Under the pieces are notes generated by a model that saw only the letters and a list, made by a program, of their open reading frames with translations, did no database searches and was not told the DNA's origin. Both the position numbers and the translations under genes were made by a program. Shown here one piece after another: positions 9,003 through 14,800 of a stretch of 14,800 nucleotides of DNA. Origin of the DNA: an uncultured Candidatus Competibacteraceae bacterium (GTDB taxonomy: Bacteria > Pseudomonadota > Gammaproteobacteria > Competibacterales > Competibacteraceae). Location: assembly GCA_937872125.1 (NCBI GenBank), contig CALMNY010000060.1:1-14800 (forward strand). The letters are read 5' to 3'. Positions within the stretch are counted from its first letter, which is position 1, and every line of letters starts with the position of its first letter.

Positions 9003-9177
9003 GAGCGGCTATCTGAGACTGTATCATAGTTAATTTTAAATAGGTTTTTTCTTCTTGTAGCGTAGTCTTGGTTTAAAAACAAAAATAAGACGAGTGAATA
9101 TATTATTATACGTACTTGACGACTTTCTTGATGATTAACGGTTAACCCTGGAATTGCGACGCTTTACTGGAAACCGA

Positions 9178-11337
9178 ATGTTGACTGATGCCAATCTGTT
9201 ATCCTTGGGCATGCACCCTGATCCATTCGCGGTGCTTGGTCGCCATGTTTATAGTAATTACCTAATAATAAGAGCATTTTTGCCTGGTGCCCAACAGGTT
9301 CGATTGGTTGATATTGATCAGCCGTTGCAGCGACTGGCGGATAGTGATCTTTTCGAGTGGCGCGGTGCTGTTGAAACCTTTCCCGTGCATTATCGTTTGG
9401 CTTGGACGGATGCTGCTGACCACAGGTGGGTTGCCTATGATCCTTATAGCTTTCCCCCTCAAATTAGCCTTTATGATTTGCACTTGTTTAATGAAGGTCG
9501 TCACCTGCATGCTTATCGGGTTTTAGGGGCGCACCCGCGAGTAGTAGATGACATTGCGGGAGTGTTATTCGCTGTTTGGGCGCCAAACGCTGCTCAAGTT
9601 AGCATAATAGGTGATTTTAACCAATGGAATCCTTTGCGTCATCCTCTGCGCCGGCGTGGGGGTATTTGGGAACTGTTTGTTCCCGGAGTAAGTGCCGGAG
9701 CGCGCTACCAGTTTGAGATTCGGGTTCGGGAAACTGGTGAAAGGCTGCACAAAAGTGATCCTTATGGTCGTGGATTTGAGCGGCGTCCTGCCCATGCTTC
9801 CCTGGTTGTAAAAAATACTTCCTACTTGTGGCGTGATGAAGCTTGGATGGCGCACCGCCGATGTCACCATTGGGCTCAAGCCCCGTTAGCAGTCTACGAG
9901 GTCCACTTGGGTTCTTGGCAACGGGGTGAGCACGGCGACTATTTGAGCTATGAGGAATTAGCGCATCGCTTGGTAGCTTATGTCAGTTCGCTGGGCTTTA
10001 CTCACATTGAATTGATGCCGATTACCGAACATCCGCTGGACGCATCTTGGGGCTATCAGACAACTGGCTATTTCGCTCCAACCAGTCGCTATGGCGATTT
10101 GTATGCTTTTTGTAAGTTCATAGATTATTGTCATCAGGCGGGCATTGGTGTTATTCTGGATTGGGTGCCAGGCCATTTTCCCAAGGATGCGCATGGTTTA
10201 ACCCGGTTTGATGGTACTTATCTTTATGAACATGAAGATCCTGATCGCCGCGAACAACGGGGTTGGGGTACCTTGGCATTTAACTATGGTCGAAATCAAG
10301 TAAAAAATTTTCTTTTGGCTAGCGCTTACTTCTGGTTAGAAGAATGTCATTTGGATGGCCTGCGAGTGGATGCTGTTGCATCCATGTTGTACTTAGACTA
10401 TGACCGTGAGTCTGGTGAGTGGGCGCCTAATCCATTTGGTGGTAATGAAAATCTGGAGGCGGTTACTTTTTTGCGGGAACTTAACGAGGTAATTCACCGC
10501 CGCTGTCCAGGTGTTTTAATGATTGCTGAAGAATCTACTGCTTGGCCATTAGTAACCCGCCCCTCTTGGAAAGGTGGTTTGGGATTTAGTATGAAGTGGA
10601 ATATGGGGTGGATGCATGATACTTTGCAATATCTGGCATGTAACCCAGACCTGCGTCGTTACCATCATGAGCTACTGACGTTTGGGTTATTATATGCTTT
10701 TACTGAAAATTTTATGCTTCCTTTGTCTCATGATGAAGTTGTTCATGGTAAAGGAGCTCTTATTTCCAGGATGCCTGGAGATTGTTATCAGCGTTTTGCA
10801 AATCTGCGCTTGCTTTATTTTTATATGTGGACCTACCCAGGTAAGAAATTTTTGTTTATGGGTAACGAATTAGCACAGGAGCGCGAATGGGATTATGCTG
10901 GAGCTTTAGATTGGGATTTATTAGGAAAACCAGAATATAGAGGCATACAGTTTCTGATTCGTGACTTGAATAGCTTTTATCAATCCACGGCAAGTCTATA
11001 TGATTTGGATTTTGTTCAGGGAGGCTTCGAATGGCTTAATTGTAATGATGCTGATCGATCTATTATAGTCTATTTGCGTCGTGGTAGCCACAGCGATCCT
11101 GTTTTGGTAATACTAAATTTTTCAGATGTAGAGCAATCCAATTATAGATTGGGTGTACCGTTTCCGGGCCTTTATCGGGAGCTTATAAATTCTGACTCTA
11201 AGATTTATGGTGGCAGTGGTGTATCAAATGGTGATAGATATGCTGATTTGATTCCGCATTTAGGATATCCTTATTCTTTAGAGTTAAACTTACCACCATT
11301 AAGTGGTTTGGCGTTAGCTGCTTTTAGAGCAGATTGA
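9178..11337 (+). CDS. glgB: 1,4-alpha-glucan branching enzyme GlgB
   Basis: A complete GH13 branching enzyme of 719 residues from the ATG at 9178; E. coli GlgB has 728. It cuts alpha-1,4 glucan chains and rejoins them as alpha-1,6 branches in glycogen. In order: an N-terminal domain beginning near HPDPFAVLGRH, a CBM48 domain (about 127-215, with VLFAVWAPNAAQVSIIGDFN), and the catalytic barrel with VYEVHLGSWQ, the nucleophile segment GLRVDAVASMLYLDY (D398), the acid/base MIAEEST (E451) and LPLSHDEVVHGK (D519), then an all-beta C-terminal domain. A TTG at 9154 could add eight residues, but it has no ribosome site at proper spacing, so the ATG is preferred, though its own site (GGA, six bases) is weak. 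Codon use becomes clearly AT-richer toward the 3' end. No terminator is evident before cysB. Confidence 0.96.
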   Translation: MLTDANLLSLGMHPDPFAVLGRHVYSNYLIIRAFLPGAQQVRLVDIDQPLQRLADSDLFEWRGAVETFPVHYRLAWTDAADHRWVAYDPYSFPPQISLYDLHLFNEGRHLHAYRVLGAHPRVVDDIAGVLFAVWAPNAAQVSIIGDFNQWNPLRHPLRRRGGIWELFVPGVSAGARYQFEIRVRETGERLHKSDPYGRGFERRPAHASLVVKNTSYLWRDEAWMAHRRCHHWAQAPLAVYEVHLGSWQRGEHGDYLSYEELAHRLVAYVSSLGFTHIELMPITEHPLDASWGYQTTGYFAPTSRYGDLYAFCKFIDYCHQAGIGVILDWVPGHFPKDAHGLTRFDGTYLYEHEDPDRREQRGWGTLAFNYGRNQVKNFLLASAYFWLEECHLDGLRVDAVASMLYLDYDRESGEWAPNPFGGNENLEAVTFLRELNEVIHRRCPGVLMIAEESTAWPLVTRPSWKGGLGFSMKWNMGWMHDTLQYLACNPDLRRYHHELLTFGLLYAFTENFMLPLSHDEVVHGKGALISRMPGDCYQRFANLRLLYFYMWTYPGKKFLFMGNELAQEREWDYAGALDWDLLGKPEYRGIQFLIRDLNSFYQSTASLYDLDFVQGGFEWLNCNDADRSIIVYLRRGSHSDPVLVILNFSDVEQSNYRLGVPFPGLYRELINSDSKIYGGSGVSNGDRYADLIPHLGYPYSLELNLPPLSGLALAAFRAD

Positions 11338-11434
11338 TAAGAATATTTGAATTTTTTTAAAGAAGCTTTTTTTGCATCAGTTGGATTTTTCCAGTCTTGA
11401 CTGCTACTGAATTTGGTTCTCGGATCAGTCTTGT

Positions 11435-11438
11435 GGAG
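11435..11438 (+). promoter_or_regulatory. Shine-Dalgarno site that sets the cysB GTG start
   Basis: GGAG lies six bases before the GTG at 11445. This start makes the protein begin MKLQQLRYL, as in known CysB proteins, rather than at the TTG at 11397. Confidence 0.8.
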
Positions 11439-11444
11439 TTTACC

Positions 11445-12419
11445 GTGAAGTTGCAGCAATTGCGTTATCTTACTGCTATTGTTCGTAATAATTTAAATAT
11501 TTCTTCTGCTGCTGAGAGCCTTTATACTTCGCAGCCTGGTATTAGCAAACAGTTGAGGCTACTGGAAGAAGAGTTGGGCGTTGAGTTATTTAACCGTAAT
11601 GGCAAACACCTTACAGATATAACTCCAATTGGCCGGCAGATTATAGCCAGAGCCGAGAAAATTCTGCATGAAGTTAATAATATTCAGATATTGGCTGAGG
11701 AATATCGAGACGACCGGCGTGGCAGCTTATCAATTGCTACAACTCATACTCAGGCTCGTTATGCACTTCCGCCGGTGATAAGGACTTTTCGGGAGCGCTA
11801 CCCAGCCGTAACTTTACAGGTCCATCAAGGATCTCCGGCACAGATTGCTGAGTTGGTGCAGTCTGGATCAGTGGATTTCGCTATTGCTACCGAATCCCTG
11901 GAACTATTTGAAGATTTGATAATGATGCCCTGTTATATTTGGTATCGCTGTATTTTAGTGCCATGTGGTCACCCTTTAGTAAATCTGGAATACTTAACTT
12001 TGCACGATATTGTTCAGTATCCGCTGGTCACTTATGTTTTTGGTTTCACAGGAAAATCACAATTAGATGAGGCATTTCGTAATGCACAATTGAAGCCGAT
12101 GGTTGCATTTACTGCGACAGATGCAGATATTATTAAAACTTATGTACGTTTAGGAATGGGGGTTGGTATTGTTGCTCGAATGGCCTATGATCCGGTGCAT
12201 GATAAAGACTTGGTTCAACTGGATGCCAGTTATCTATTTGCAGCAAATATAACCAAGATAGGTTTTCGGCGTGGAACATTTCTGAGGTGCTATATGTATG
12301 ATTTTATGGAATTGTTTGCCCCTCATTTAACCCGGGAGCGGGTGCGGCTAATGGAACGATCTCAGACTCCTGAAGAAGTGGAAAAATTGTTTGACAAAGT
12401 AACTTTACCGGTCTTTTAG
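11445..12419 (+). CDS. cysB: LysR-type regulator CysB (sulfur assimilation)
   Basis: From the GTG at 11445 the protein has 324 residues, the same as enteric CysB, and begins MKLQQLRYL. CysB is a tetrameric LysR-type activator of sulfate uptake and cysteine biosynthesis, induced by N-acetylserine. The helix-turn-helix covers about 18-45 (NISSAAESLYTSQPGISKQL). The effector-domain segment ATTHTQARYALP (99-109) and YVFGFTGKSQLD (197-208) match the family; T100, T102, Q103, T149 and T202 fall at the positions known to bind sulfate/inducer in Klebsiella CysB. ATDADIIKTYVRLGMGVGIV and the C-terminal RERV/LP segments also fit. It follows glgB by 107 bases, with no obvious functional link, and precedes the Tus-like gene by 44 bases. 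Base composition is AT-rich like its neighbours. Confidence 0.95.
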   Translation: MKLQQLRYLTAIVRNNLNISSAAESLYTSQPGISKQLRLLEEELGVELFNRNGKHLTDITPIGRQIIARAEKILHEVNNIQILAEEYRDDRRGSLSIATTHTQARYALPPVIRTFRERYPAVTLQVHQGSPAQIAELVQSGSVDFAIATESLELFEDLIMMPCYIWYRCILVPCGHPLVNLEYLTLHDIVQYPLVTYVFGFTGKSQLDEAFRNAQLKPMVAFTATDADIIKTYVRLGMGVGIVARMAYDPVHDKDLVQLDASYLFAANITKIGFRRGTFLRCYMYDFMELFAPHLTRERVRLMERSQTPEEVEKLFDKVTLPVF

Positions 12420-12451
12420 CATTTTTGTACATCACTTTTAACGAACCAGTT

Positions 12452-12455
12452 AGGG
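12452..12455 (+). promoter_or_regulatory. Shine-Dalgarno site that sets the Tus-like gene start
   Basis: AGGG lies eight bases before the GTG at 12464. The alternative TTG at 12425 has no such site and would add 13 residues that do not extend the similarity to Tus. Confidence 0.6.
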
Positions 12456-12463
12456 AAAAATCA

Positions 12464-13360
12464 GTGCAAAGTTTTTCAGCTATTGCACGAATTAACTTGT
12501 TAGCCTGTTTTGAAGCTTTACTTGCGCAGATTGATGCTCTTTGCATTGCAGTTCGCCGAGACAGCGCTTTACCAACTTGGGTATCGCGTACTGAGGCCGA
12601 ACTGATAGAGAATCTGGATATGCGATCTAAGGCTATTCAGATTTATCGAGCGCTTTGGTATGAGGACAGCCAGGACGGTCGGGAAACAGTAACCTGTCCC
12701 GGTATCGTTGGCGTCAGCCCGGCTACTTTGGTTGTTGCTCATGCCTGTAATACTGCCAAAGACGAGTTCAAGAATGCAGTATTGGCATTAAAAGCACTCA
12801 GCCGAACTGAAGTTCGTGGCCTGATGGATGATTTGCATCGAAGGTGGGATACAGTAGCGATAGCAATGCGACGTATGGGCGCGGCCCGGTTGAATTTGAA
12901 GCAGGCTTATCGGCATGTTCCTTTTTTAGAGCGGCGTCCGCTGAAGATCGGTTTTACTTGGTCAAAACAGGGAAGAGTTATTCAGCGCACCAGTGTCGCT
13001 GCTGCTCGTTGTCTTTTGGAACAGCGAGTAGAGACTCCACAGACTCGCTTGGAGTTACAGAGGTTATTGGAAATTGATAAAAATGAACCTTTGGCGCGGG
13101 TTCGCAGAGTCTGCCCGCACTTGCGCGCCAATATTGTTTTTCCTGAGCCTGAGCATGGCCATCAGGTATTGCGCAGATTGATGCAGGCTCCTATACCGAT
13201 TCTGGTGCCGCTACAGTATGGAGAACGGCTGCCCGAGTTTGTAGCAGTAACACCGGATCCTCCGGTGAGTCTTCGTTTACGGCGGGCGGATGTGCGAATT
13301 GAGGATGAGCCTTTTTTACCGTCGGTTCAGTTATATCGGTATCGTAGTTCTTATCGTTAA
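12464..13360 (+). CDS. tus: Tus-like replication terminus site-binding protein
   Basis: From the GTG at 12464 the protein has 298 residues; E. coli Tus has 309. Tus binds Ter sites and blocks the replicative helicase from one side, trapping forks in the terminus. Aligned from memory with E. coli Tus, similarity runs along the whole length: PG(I/V) at 79-81 (95-97 in E. coli); N96, K99, F102 and V106 at the same spacing as N118, K121, F124 and V128; AYR at 148-150 (155-157); LKIGFTWSKQ against LRFGWANK; PLARV at 209-213 against PIARV; APIPILVPLQYG against CPTPLIALINRD; and an EPFLPSVQLYRY tail against LIIPRLHLYV. The lock residues F140 and H144 of E. coli Tus do not appear to be kept, though the alignment there is uncertain. 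The protein is rich in arginine, fitting DNA binding. It could be a divergent relative with changed specificity. Confidence 0.75.
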   Translation: MQSFSAIARINLLACFEALLAQIDALCIAVRRDSALPTWVSRTEAELIENLDMRSKAIQIYRALWYEDSQDGRETVTCPGIVGVSPATLVVAHACNTAKDEFKNAVLALKALSRTEVRGLMDDLHRRWDTVAIAMRRMGAARLNLKQAYRHVPFLERRPLKIGFTWSKQGRVIQRTSVAAARCLLEQRVETPQTRLELQRLLEIDKNEPLARVRRVCPHLRANIVFPEPEHGHQVLRRLMQAPIPILVPLQYGERLPEFVAVTPDPPVSLRLRRADVRIEDEPFLPSVQLYRYRSSYR

Positions 13361-13379
13361 ATAAGTTTTTAGATGATGG

Positions 13380-13385
13380 TATAAA
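13380..13385 (+). promoter_or_regulatory. Possible -10 element upstream of glgX
   Basis: TATAAA lies in the AT-rich 107-base gap between the Tus-like gene and glgX. At 17-base spacing the -35 (13357-13362, TTAAAT) matches poorly. The return to GC-rich coding sequence in glgX, with its own strong ribosome site, makes an independent promoter here plausible but unproven. Confidence 0.25.
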
Positions 13386-13467
13386 AAAGTAAATGAAATA
13401 GCCTGAAATTATTTGAATTCAAAAATCCTCCTACTCATAACAAAATATCCCCACCAGGAGATTCCCC

Positions 13468-14748
13468 ATGTCCGCTCGCGCTCGCGTATGGCCAGGTCAT
13501 CCATATCCTCTCGGCGCTGCCTGGGATGGCAAAGGGGTTAATTTTGCTTTGTTTTCTGCTCATGCCGAGAAAGTTGAGCTATGCCTGTTCGATTCCTCGG
13601 GCCAGCGCGAAATTGAACGCCTGGCTCTGGCGGAGAATACGGATCAGGTCTGGCATGGTTATGTGCCTGGATTATGGCCTGGCGCCTTGTATGGCTACCG
13701 CGTATCGGGACCTTATGAACCGCAGATTGGCCACCGCTTTAACCATCACAAACTACTGCTTGACCCTTACGCCAAGCAGTTTTATGGCACGCTGCACTTG
13801 CGCGATGAGCACTGCGGCTATCAGGTAGGCCATCATGACGCCGATCTGTCTTTTGATACCCGCGATAATGCCCGCGACATGCTCAAATGCGTAGTGGTAG
13901 ATACTCGCTTCAACTGGGAAAACGATCGCTCCCCTGAAATCCCCTGGTCGCAGACCATCATCTACGAAACTCATGTTCGCGGATTCACCATTCGCCATGA
14001 GGGCGTCCCCCATCATCTTCGCGGCACTTTCGCCGGCTTGGCGCATCCCGAAGTTATTAAGTATCTTCAGTCCCTGGGTATTAGCGCGGTGGAGCTAATG
14101 CCAGTTCATGCATTCGTAGACGACCGCTTTTTGACTGATCGTGGTTTGCGGAATTACTGGGGTTATAACACGTTATGCTTTTTCGCCCCGGAGCCGCGTT
14201 ATCTGAGTGGCGGTGACTTGGTCGAGTTCAAGACCATGATCAAACGACTGCACGACGCCGGCATTGAGGTGCTGCTTGACGTAGTCTATAACCACACTGC
14301 TGAGGGCGACCAGATGGGACCAACCCTCAGTTTCAAGGGCATTGACAACGCTTCCTATTACCGGCTTCAGCCTCACGACCGCCGCTACTACATTAATGAC
14401 ACAGGCTGTGGCAACACCCTGAACCTGATGCATCCACGGGTATTGCAGATGGTGATGGACAGTCTGCGCTACTGGGTTAATGAAATGCACGTGGATGGTT
14501 TTCGCTTTGACTTGGCGGTAACGCTGGGTCGTGAGGAATACGGTTATGATCGCGCTGGCGGTTTTTTTGACGCCATCCGTCAGGATCCCGCCATGTCACG
14601 GGTCAAGATCATCGCCGAGCCATGGGACATCGGTCCCGGCGGATATCAGCTTGGCGGTTTCCCGTCCGGGACCGCCGAGTGGAACGACCGCTTCCGCGAT
14701 ACGGTGCGTCGGATTTGGCGCGGCGACGACGGCATGTTGGCCAAGTGA
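13468..14748 (+). CDS. glgX: Glycogen debranching enzyme GlgX, C-terminally truncated
   Basis: GlgX hydrolyses alpha-1,6 branches of limit dextrin during glycogen breakdown. The start is secure: ATG at 13468 with AGGAG seven bases upstream. The N-terminal CBM48 domain (about 8-130, beginning GHPYPLGAAWDGKGVNFALF) leads into a GH13 barrel with IIYETHVRGFT (164-174), LLDVVYNHTAEG (269-280), the nucleophile segment DGFRFDLA (D348) and the acid/base segment IAEPWD (E384). The frame then meets TGA after FRDTVRRIWRGDDGMLAK, at residue 426, whereas E. coli GlgX has 657 residues. The third catalytic aspartate (HDGFTL segment), the rest of the barrel and the C-terminal domain are missing. None of the three frames after the stop continues GlgX for the last 52 bases, so this looks like an insertion or rearrangement breakpoint rather than a frameshift. 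The product is probably inactive. Confidence 0.88.
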   Translation: MSARARVWPGHPYPLGAAWDGKGVNFALFSAHAEKVELCLFDSSGQREIERLALAENTDQVWHGYVPGLWPGALYGYRVSGPYEPQIGHRFNHHKLLLDPYAKQFYGTLHLRDEHCGYQVGHHDADLSFDTRDNARDMLKCVVVDTRFNWENDRSPEIPWSQTIIYETHVRGFTIRHEGVPHHLRGTFAGLAHPEVIKYLQSLGISAVELMPVHAFVDDRFLTDRGLRNYWGYNTLCFFAPEPRYLSGGDLVEFKTMIKRLHDAGIEVLLDVVYNHTAEGDQMGPTLSFKGIDNASYYRLQPHDRRYYINDTGCGNTLNLMHPRVLQMVMDSLRYWVNEMHVDGFRFDLAVTLGREEYGYDRAGGFFDAIRQDPAMSRVKIIAEPWDIGPGGYQLGGFPSGTAEWNDRFRDTVRRIWRGDDGMLAK

Positions 14749-14800
14749 TCCCCTAACCTGCTTGCGTTATTCTGTGTTCCAGGTAGTATCTCTCCTTACA

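Follow-up and report, generated by a model that had tools for sequence, protein, structure and literature searches.

The window, by which we mean the whole 14,800-nucleotide stretch analysed here, is part of contig C60 of a draft genome (G000; 3.49 Mb, 80.7% complete) from a glycogen-storing environmental member of Competibacteraceae and carries a tus-like gene close to genes for glycogen metabolism. An earlier note on this DNA, made from the letters alone, had read the neighbours as glycogen and sulfur genes, and malQ, glgC, glgB, glgX and cysB each score above their NCBIfam cut-offs; thiM is a further neighbour. The features on which our argument rests are as follows.

9154..11337, forward strand: glgB, a conserved neighbour (NCBIfam GlgB, above cut-off)
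11397..12419, forward strand: cysB (LysR family), the conserved upstream neighbour (NCBIfam CysB 518.6 bits, cut-off 436)
12464..13360, forward strand: tus-like gene of 298 codons with a GTG start, predicted to encode a divergent Tus superfamily protein (frame, start, iterated profile, hhalign)
13370..13387, forward strand (the tus strand): candidate Ter site, core GATGATGGTATAAAA at 13372-13386 (0 mismatches to a conserved motif)
13468..14748, forward strand: glgX, the conserved downstream neighbour, in a frame shorter than the family model (TIGR02100 724.9 bits, cut-off 640.9)

The open frame around the tus-like gene spans 12425-13360 on the forward strand, and the GTG at 12464 coincides with the position of an ATG in many orthologues. 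The residue blocks singled out by the earlier note (PG, AYR, LKIGF, PLARV and LPSVQLYRY) are present in the protein and are largely kept in 24 relatives. The usual place of tus in the family is between cysB and glgX: among 25 named loci with genes for close relatives (Contendobacter, Competibacter or Competibacteraceae in the title of 19, other names in 6), 22 have cysB upstream and 20 have glgX no more than 0.4 kb downstream, contig ends explaining part of the remainder. The corresponding context in E. coli is rstB/fumC. At the end of the window (14745-14800), a stop codon closes the glgX frame at a length of 426 codons, covering positions 2-418 of the 688-position TIGR02100 model, and the bases beyond the stop continue glgX in no frame by eye, so that a truncated gene, an insertion or an assembly join may lie here.

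Homology to Tus and residence in the family

Searched directly, the window protein matched no Pfam family at E<=10, PF05472 included, and found no match in NCBIfam or among PDB sequences; the whole of G000 gave nothing against PF05472 at E<=0.001, and four more Competibacteraceae Tus proteins were likewise without a PF05472 match. Profiles reached further. An iterated profile of 19 family proteins and 25 relatives, which holds no members from Enterobacterales or Pseudoalteromonas plasmids (members from class genomes might include such groups), scored E. coli Tus at 50.7 bits, the top of 2000 shuffles being 15.9, and hhalign against six enteric and Pseudoalteromonas Tus proteins gave 99.2% (E 7.5e-20, 234 columns). 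The narrower profile from the close-family alignment A1 alone gave E. coli Tus just 5.9 bits, a weak score, and in hhalign, too, the close family matched E. coli Tus weakly when this was the only target (E 0.13). Identity to E. coli Tus is about 21% in a four-sequence alignment. The PF05472 check proposed in the earlier note therefore came out negative for the single sequence, and the chain of profiles shows real homology to E. coli Tus; its main suggestion, a Tus-like protein outside the enteric setting, is borne out by that homology and by the gene being a Competibacteraceae one. On these comparisons we conclude that the window protein is a member of the Tus superfamily outside the family as modelled by Pfam. 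Tus has a fold of two domains that clamp DNA; the AlphaFold2 model of the window protein was poor (mean pLDDT 47.8, pTM 0.38).

Relatives also turned up beyond the family. A tblastn search of plasmids matched the window protein in 63 records, and among the 20 matches listed, with identities of 23-38%, 6 carry the annotation DNA replication terminus site-binding protein. The relative on a Methylophaga plasmid matches PF05472 (30.7 bits, cut-off 22), and the one on a Halomonas plasmid gives no match over that cut-off. Across 369 genomes of the class, PF05472 found a match in 9 and A1 in 25 (3 of them Competibacteraceae), and 8 genomes hold proteins matched by both. The viral contigs that we scanned held no relative of the window protein.

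Within Competibacteraceae, tus matches at E<=1e-30 occur in 34 of 39 genomes, namely the window's own and 33 of 38 relatives. G035 has a weak fragment only, G001, G014, G021 and G038 gave no tus match in this search, and G010 and G020 carry a different copy (37-38% identity). The same search of 57 more distant genomes returned a match in 3. On a tree of 32 Tus proteins, in which many inner branches are unresolved, genera g1, g12, g5, g10 and g4 each form a single group; g9 and g11 do not. Galli et al. (2019; PMC6549158) recognize a resident tus by a conserved context within the clade and by a protein tree congruent with the species tree; the former is what we find in this family. The portions of that paper drawn on here place resident tus genes, found using PF05472, in Enterobacteriales, Pseudoalteromonas and Aeromonadales, and describe most non-enteric tus as mobile, plasmid-derived passengers.

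An oriented motif around a candidate dif

The motif was first noticed in reading the gaps around tus in family loci, where it is repeated just before or after the gene and on its strand. The motif, AGATGATGRTATAAAA, has a single copy in the window, 12 bp past the tus stop codon. At <=2 mismatches, 26 of 30 loci have the motif beside tus (upstream in 18, downstream in 18, on the opposite strand in 0), and the other 4 have no copy there at that threshold. Genome by genome, GATGATGRTATAAAA at <=1 mismatch has 189 copies in 36 of the 39 family genomes, about 2-10 in each, against 4 copies of the reversed pattern and a base composition expectation of 0.09 per 4 Mb. The consensus from 96 distinct copies is [AT]AGATGATG[AG]TATAAAAA; these copies were selected by pattern, so conservation of the core is partly by construction, which does not hold for the preferences at -2, -1 and +15. 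The first G of the core is not invariant, its conservation being 86%.

G010 and G020, the genomes with a different tus, have mainly a variant core, TATGATGRTATAAAA, and G014 and G021, among those without a tus match, have no motif copy at <=1 mismatch, a joint absence that may alternatively mean that the terminus region is missing from these drafts. G023 has tus and no motif copy genome-wide at <=1 mismatch. In a class-wide control, one-mismatch matches were common (198 of 369 genomes, 3 in the family), so that the motif tells us something only in the G+C-rich genomes of this family and in combination with its geometry; beside the tus genes of more distant relatives, matches appear just at 3-4 mismatches, near chance. 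Two class-level genomes, G255 and G356, show the motif 11 and 16 times, with 0 and 2 matches to the reversed control, respectively; in G356 a Tus relative is divided between two frames, and G255 has no PF05472 or A1 match.

Similarity between the motif and TerB does not reach significance (P 0.41). The earlier note had seen no E. coli Ter near the gene, and TATGTTGTAACTA at <=3 mismatches indeed gives 2 matches in the window where chance predicts 1.88; its guess of a different Ter sequence agrees with a candidate site that differs from E. coli Ter. By position and recurrence, AGATGATGRTATAAAA is probably the Ter that it missed.

To orient the motif, we needed the terminus. Canonical dif was found in only 3 of the 39 family genomes, and a looser pattern gave scattered weak matches in 4 of 10, so we sought the lineage's own dif as a palindrome common to the regions between opposed motif groups in four genomes (G003, G018, G019 and G026). 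A 28-bp palindrome, 1 of 12 listed candidates, was chosen by visual inspection, on symmetry and A+T content. Across the full set of 39 genomes it occurs in 27 (reversed control 0), in more than one place in 7 of them, and its copies, which are pattern-selected, have conserved, strongly symmetric arms and a variable centre. Positions include G003:C41:218206-218233, G018:C10:74508-74535 and, in the window's genome, G000:C114:110-137, on a contig that aligns to the G004 dif at 96%. Within 60 kb of the palindrome, 9 of 9 contigs have positive GC skew on the left and 7 of 8 have negative skew on the right, G026 being slightly positive there, and octamers of a motif that we take to be of KOPS type are split 67:9 on the left and 6:56 on the right. 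Lying at the switch of both signals, the palindrome is a candidate dif, and it has the marks of a chromosomal one: about 28 bp, inverted arms, roughly one occurrence per genome and a place at the terminus.

A Xer-like recombinase of ~400 aa often lies near the palindrome. At E<=1e-30 the recombinase has a match in 29 of 39 genomes (G000 gave none at this threshold). Both features are on one contig in 18 cases: in 7 of these they are 91-463 bp apart, and in the other 11 the distance is 2.2-17.6 kb. The protein falls far below the XerC and XerD cut-offs. XerD itself is above cut-off in 1 of 39 genomes, G010, among the 3 with canonical dif, and some XerD match at E<=1e-20 exists in 32 of 39; just 4 of 14 control genomes pass the XerD cut-off, so its absence in the family is suggestive only. 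Palindrome and recombinase may together make up a dif system with a single recombinase, here in a family of Gammaproteobacteria. The nearest described kind is Legionellales XerL/dif (PMC9765430, in the sections used here), likened by description and not by sequence: our candidate shares the strongly symmetric arms and a ~400 aa Xer-like recombinase on the same contig, sometimes adjacent, and differs in distance, dif and xerL in L. pneumophila being >400 kb apart against 91 bp to 17.6 kb here.

Two further arrangements deserve mention. A second recombinase form, 65-70% identical to the G008 copy, occurs at L234:3398-4869 (G007:C44), L233 (G008:C380), G003:C10:2134-3607 and in G033:C385; the Ter-like copies that flank it point away from it in 7 of 7 cases, and it is perhaps a mobile element or a Tus-bound recombinase gene. 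At G010:C280:1357-2680, in the genome that has XerD above cut-off and the variant motif TATGATGGTATAAAA, the divergent tus lies 403 bp from a canonical-type dif, and this locus is maybe a replaced termination module.

With a candidate dif in hand, the orientation of the motif could be read. Forty of the 189 copies, from 17 genomes, share a contig with a dif candidate (39 with the palindrome, one, in G010, with canonical dif), and 40 of 40 are directed away from it; the genomes are related, so these copies are not independent. Outside the four discovery genomes, all 26 of 26 copies on dif contigs point outward. The remaining 149 lie on contigs without a dif candidate, and orientation is readable there for six copies in G000 and for those on recombinase contigs. 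On recombinase contigs without dif (G013, G017, G025, G030 and G033:C345), 8 of 9 copies are directed away from the recombinase, the exception being G033:C345:3269, ~190 bp from it. In G000, contigs C60, C145, C248 and C545 align to arms of G003 (listed in the same genus as G000), G004, G005 or G007, which places 6 of 7 copies by synteny, 3 per arm and all outward; the copy on C541 is unplaced.

Copies lie mostly 10-60 kb either side of dif, and where a single contig spans both arms, as in five genomes, 42-98 kb separate the innermost copies of opposite orientation. A fork trap has this arrangement, in which asymmetric sites form one group on each side of dif and the two groups are opposed; the dif is here itself a candidate. 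The earlier note had proposed a genome-wide search for a repeated, oriented motif near the skew switch, and outward copies that flank the candidate dif are what such a search finds. In E. coli, TerB precedes tus directly and is on the same strand as the gene, so the geometry of the family motif agrees with it. On the arm without tus, motif pairs recur ~1.48 kb apart (G003:C41:251625/253109, G018:C10:14030/15513, G028:C131:66580/68080 and others); the G003 pair flanks a thiolase-like frame, named by eye, that adjoins a serS-like frame.

A proposed fork trap and its alternatives

What computation established is homology, conserved gene context and a motif that is rare in these genomes and oriented outward; from these we infer Tus binding to the motif, fork arrest and polarity. 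The window protein is, we think very likely, a resident and highly divergent Tus that forms a polar fork trap at a new ~18 bp Ter flanking dif. In the most likely mechanism, it would bind the asymmetric site, with the consensus [AT]AGATGATG[AG]TATAAAAA, and would let forks enter the dif region but stop those that pass dif and try to leave, in a trap ~42-98 kb wide as judged from the five genomes. The blocking face would be the AGATGATG end, as E. coli geometry suggests. The upstream motif copy in relatives suggests that tus may also be autoregulated.

E. coli Tus halts DNA copying in one direction, and its lock is made of F140, H144 and the C6 base. The earlier note had suspected that F140 and H144 are changed, and neither is kept in the family rows of two alignments, in which the register is uncertain. 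Either another pocket does the work of the E. coli lock or arrest has another basis.

Other readings of the same data deserve weighing. The motif just upstream of tus in 18 of 30 loci is where an autoregulatory operator would sit, and its A+T-rich, -10-like core (TGRTATAAAA resembles an extended -10 box) could make it an operator, or a mere promoter element, of a Tus-derived transcription regulator that has lost fork arrest. This reading is improbable: as many loci, 18 of 30, carry a copy just downstream of the gene, and the orientation of copies tracks the side of dif and not transcription. The copies at the G003 thiolase-like frame are on the strand opposite to it, whereas those at tus are on the tus strand, and the copy at G000:C145:1111 sits in the 32 bp that separate two open frames running toward each other. 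FtsK is known to have oriented signals around dif, and the KOPS-type octamers are polarized in these genomes too, so the motif might instead be an architecture signal of the KOPS or AIMS kind, read by another protein and beside tus by hitch-hiking. KOPS, however, are many per contig and point toward dif, the motif numbers ~2-10 per genome and points away, and its place beside tus in 26 of 30 loci and its mainly altered core where tus is a different one (G010 and G020) also speak against hitch-hiking; we give that reading very little credence.

Least probable of all, and already disfavoured, is that tus came from a plasmid as a mobile passenger and plays no part in the chromosome; Galli et al. 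(PMC6549158, in the portions cited) describe most non-enteric tus in this way. Outside Competibacteraceae, the plasmid search gave its best matches to genes on plasmids of Halomonas, Pseudomonas, Vibrio and Methylophaga, and the G010 tus so close to a canonical-type dif looks replaced or inserted; but a gene present in 34 of 39 genomes in a conserved context, with several genera forming single groups on the Tus tree, does not look like a passenger.

A resident fork trap in Competibacteraceae would resemble E. coli Tus-Ter in its profile-homologous protein, in asymmetric sites forming two opposed groups around dif and in having one site on the tus strand beside the gene. It would differ in the lack of a direct PF05472 match, in sequence identity, in a site without significant TerB similarity, in F140 and H144 not being kept, in the neighbours of the gene and in a trap width of 42-98 kb. 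The passages used from Toft et al. (2021; PMC8707476) describe narrow fork traps of type I in Edwardsiella, Dickeya and others, which the family recalls in its few sites, its narrow trap and a site adjoining tus. These bacteria belong to Enterobacterales and have Ter of the E. coli type, whereas Competibacteraceae have 2-10 copies per genome, at one mismatch, of another sequence. The Tus proteins of plasmids and chromids (Halomonas, Pseudomonas, Methylophaga and Pseudoalteromonas) are the kind to which the closest relatives found among plasmids belong; unlike these, the family tus is on chromosomal contigs with glycogen genes, several also with a candidate dif.

Our literature searches found nothing on Competibacter and Tus beyond a list of taxon names, no work on Competibacter and tyrosine recombinases and no title on Ter in Competibacteraceae; subscription papers were mostly outside their scope, and absence from print is unproven. 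A deeply diverged Tus with its likely Ter would make it testable whether a cytosine lock is needed for polar arrest or whether other contacts suffice. The approach used here, repeats beside the gene and then orientation around dif, could find Ter elsewhere, for example in Pseudoalteromonas, where the consulted part of PMC7858055 says that ter was not found with the E. coli consensus. Competibacteraceae would be a further group with a resident tus, one invisible to PF05472, beyond the three in the portions of PMC6549158 drawn on above. More tentatively, at slightly less than even odds, the family may have the fourth Tus-Ter trap that is resident in a chromosome, one with a Ter of its own and with polarity achieved without the F140/H144 pocket, beside a single-recombinase palindromic dif, so that both termination and dimer resolution would be of a non-enteric kind.
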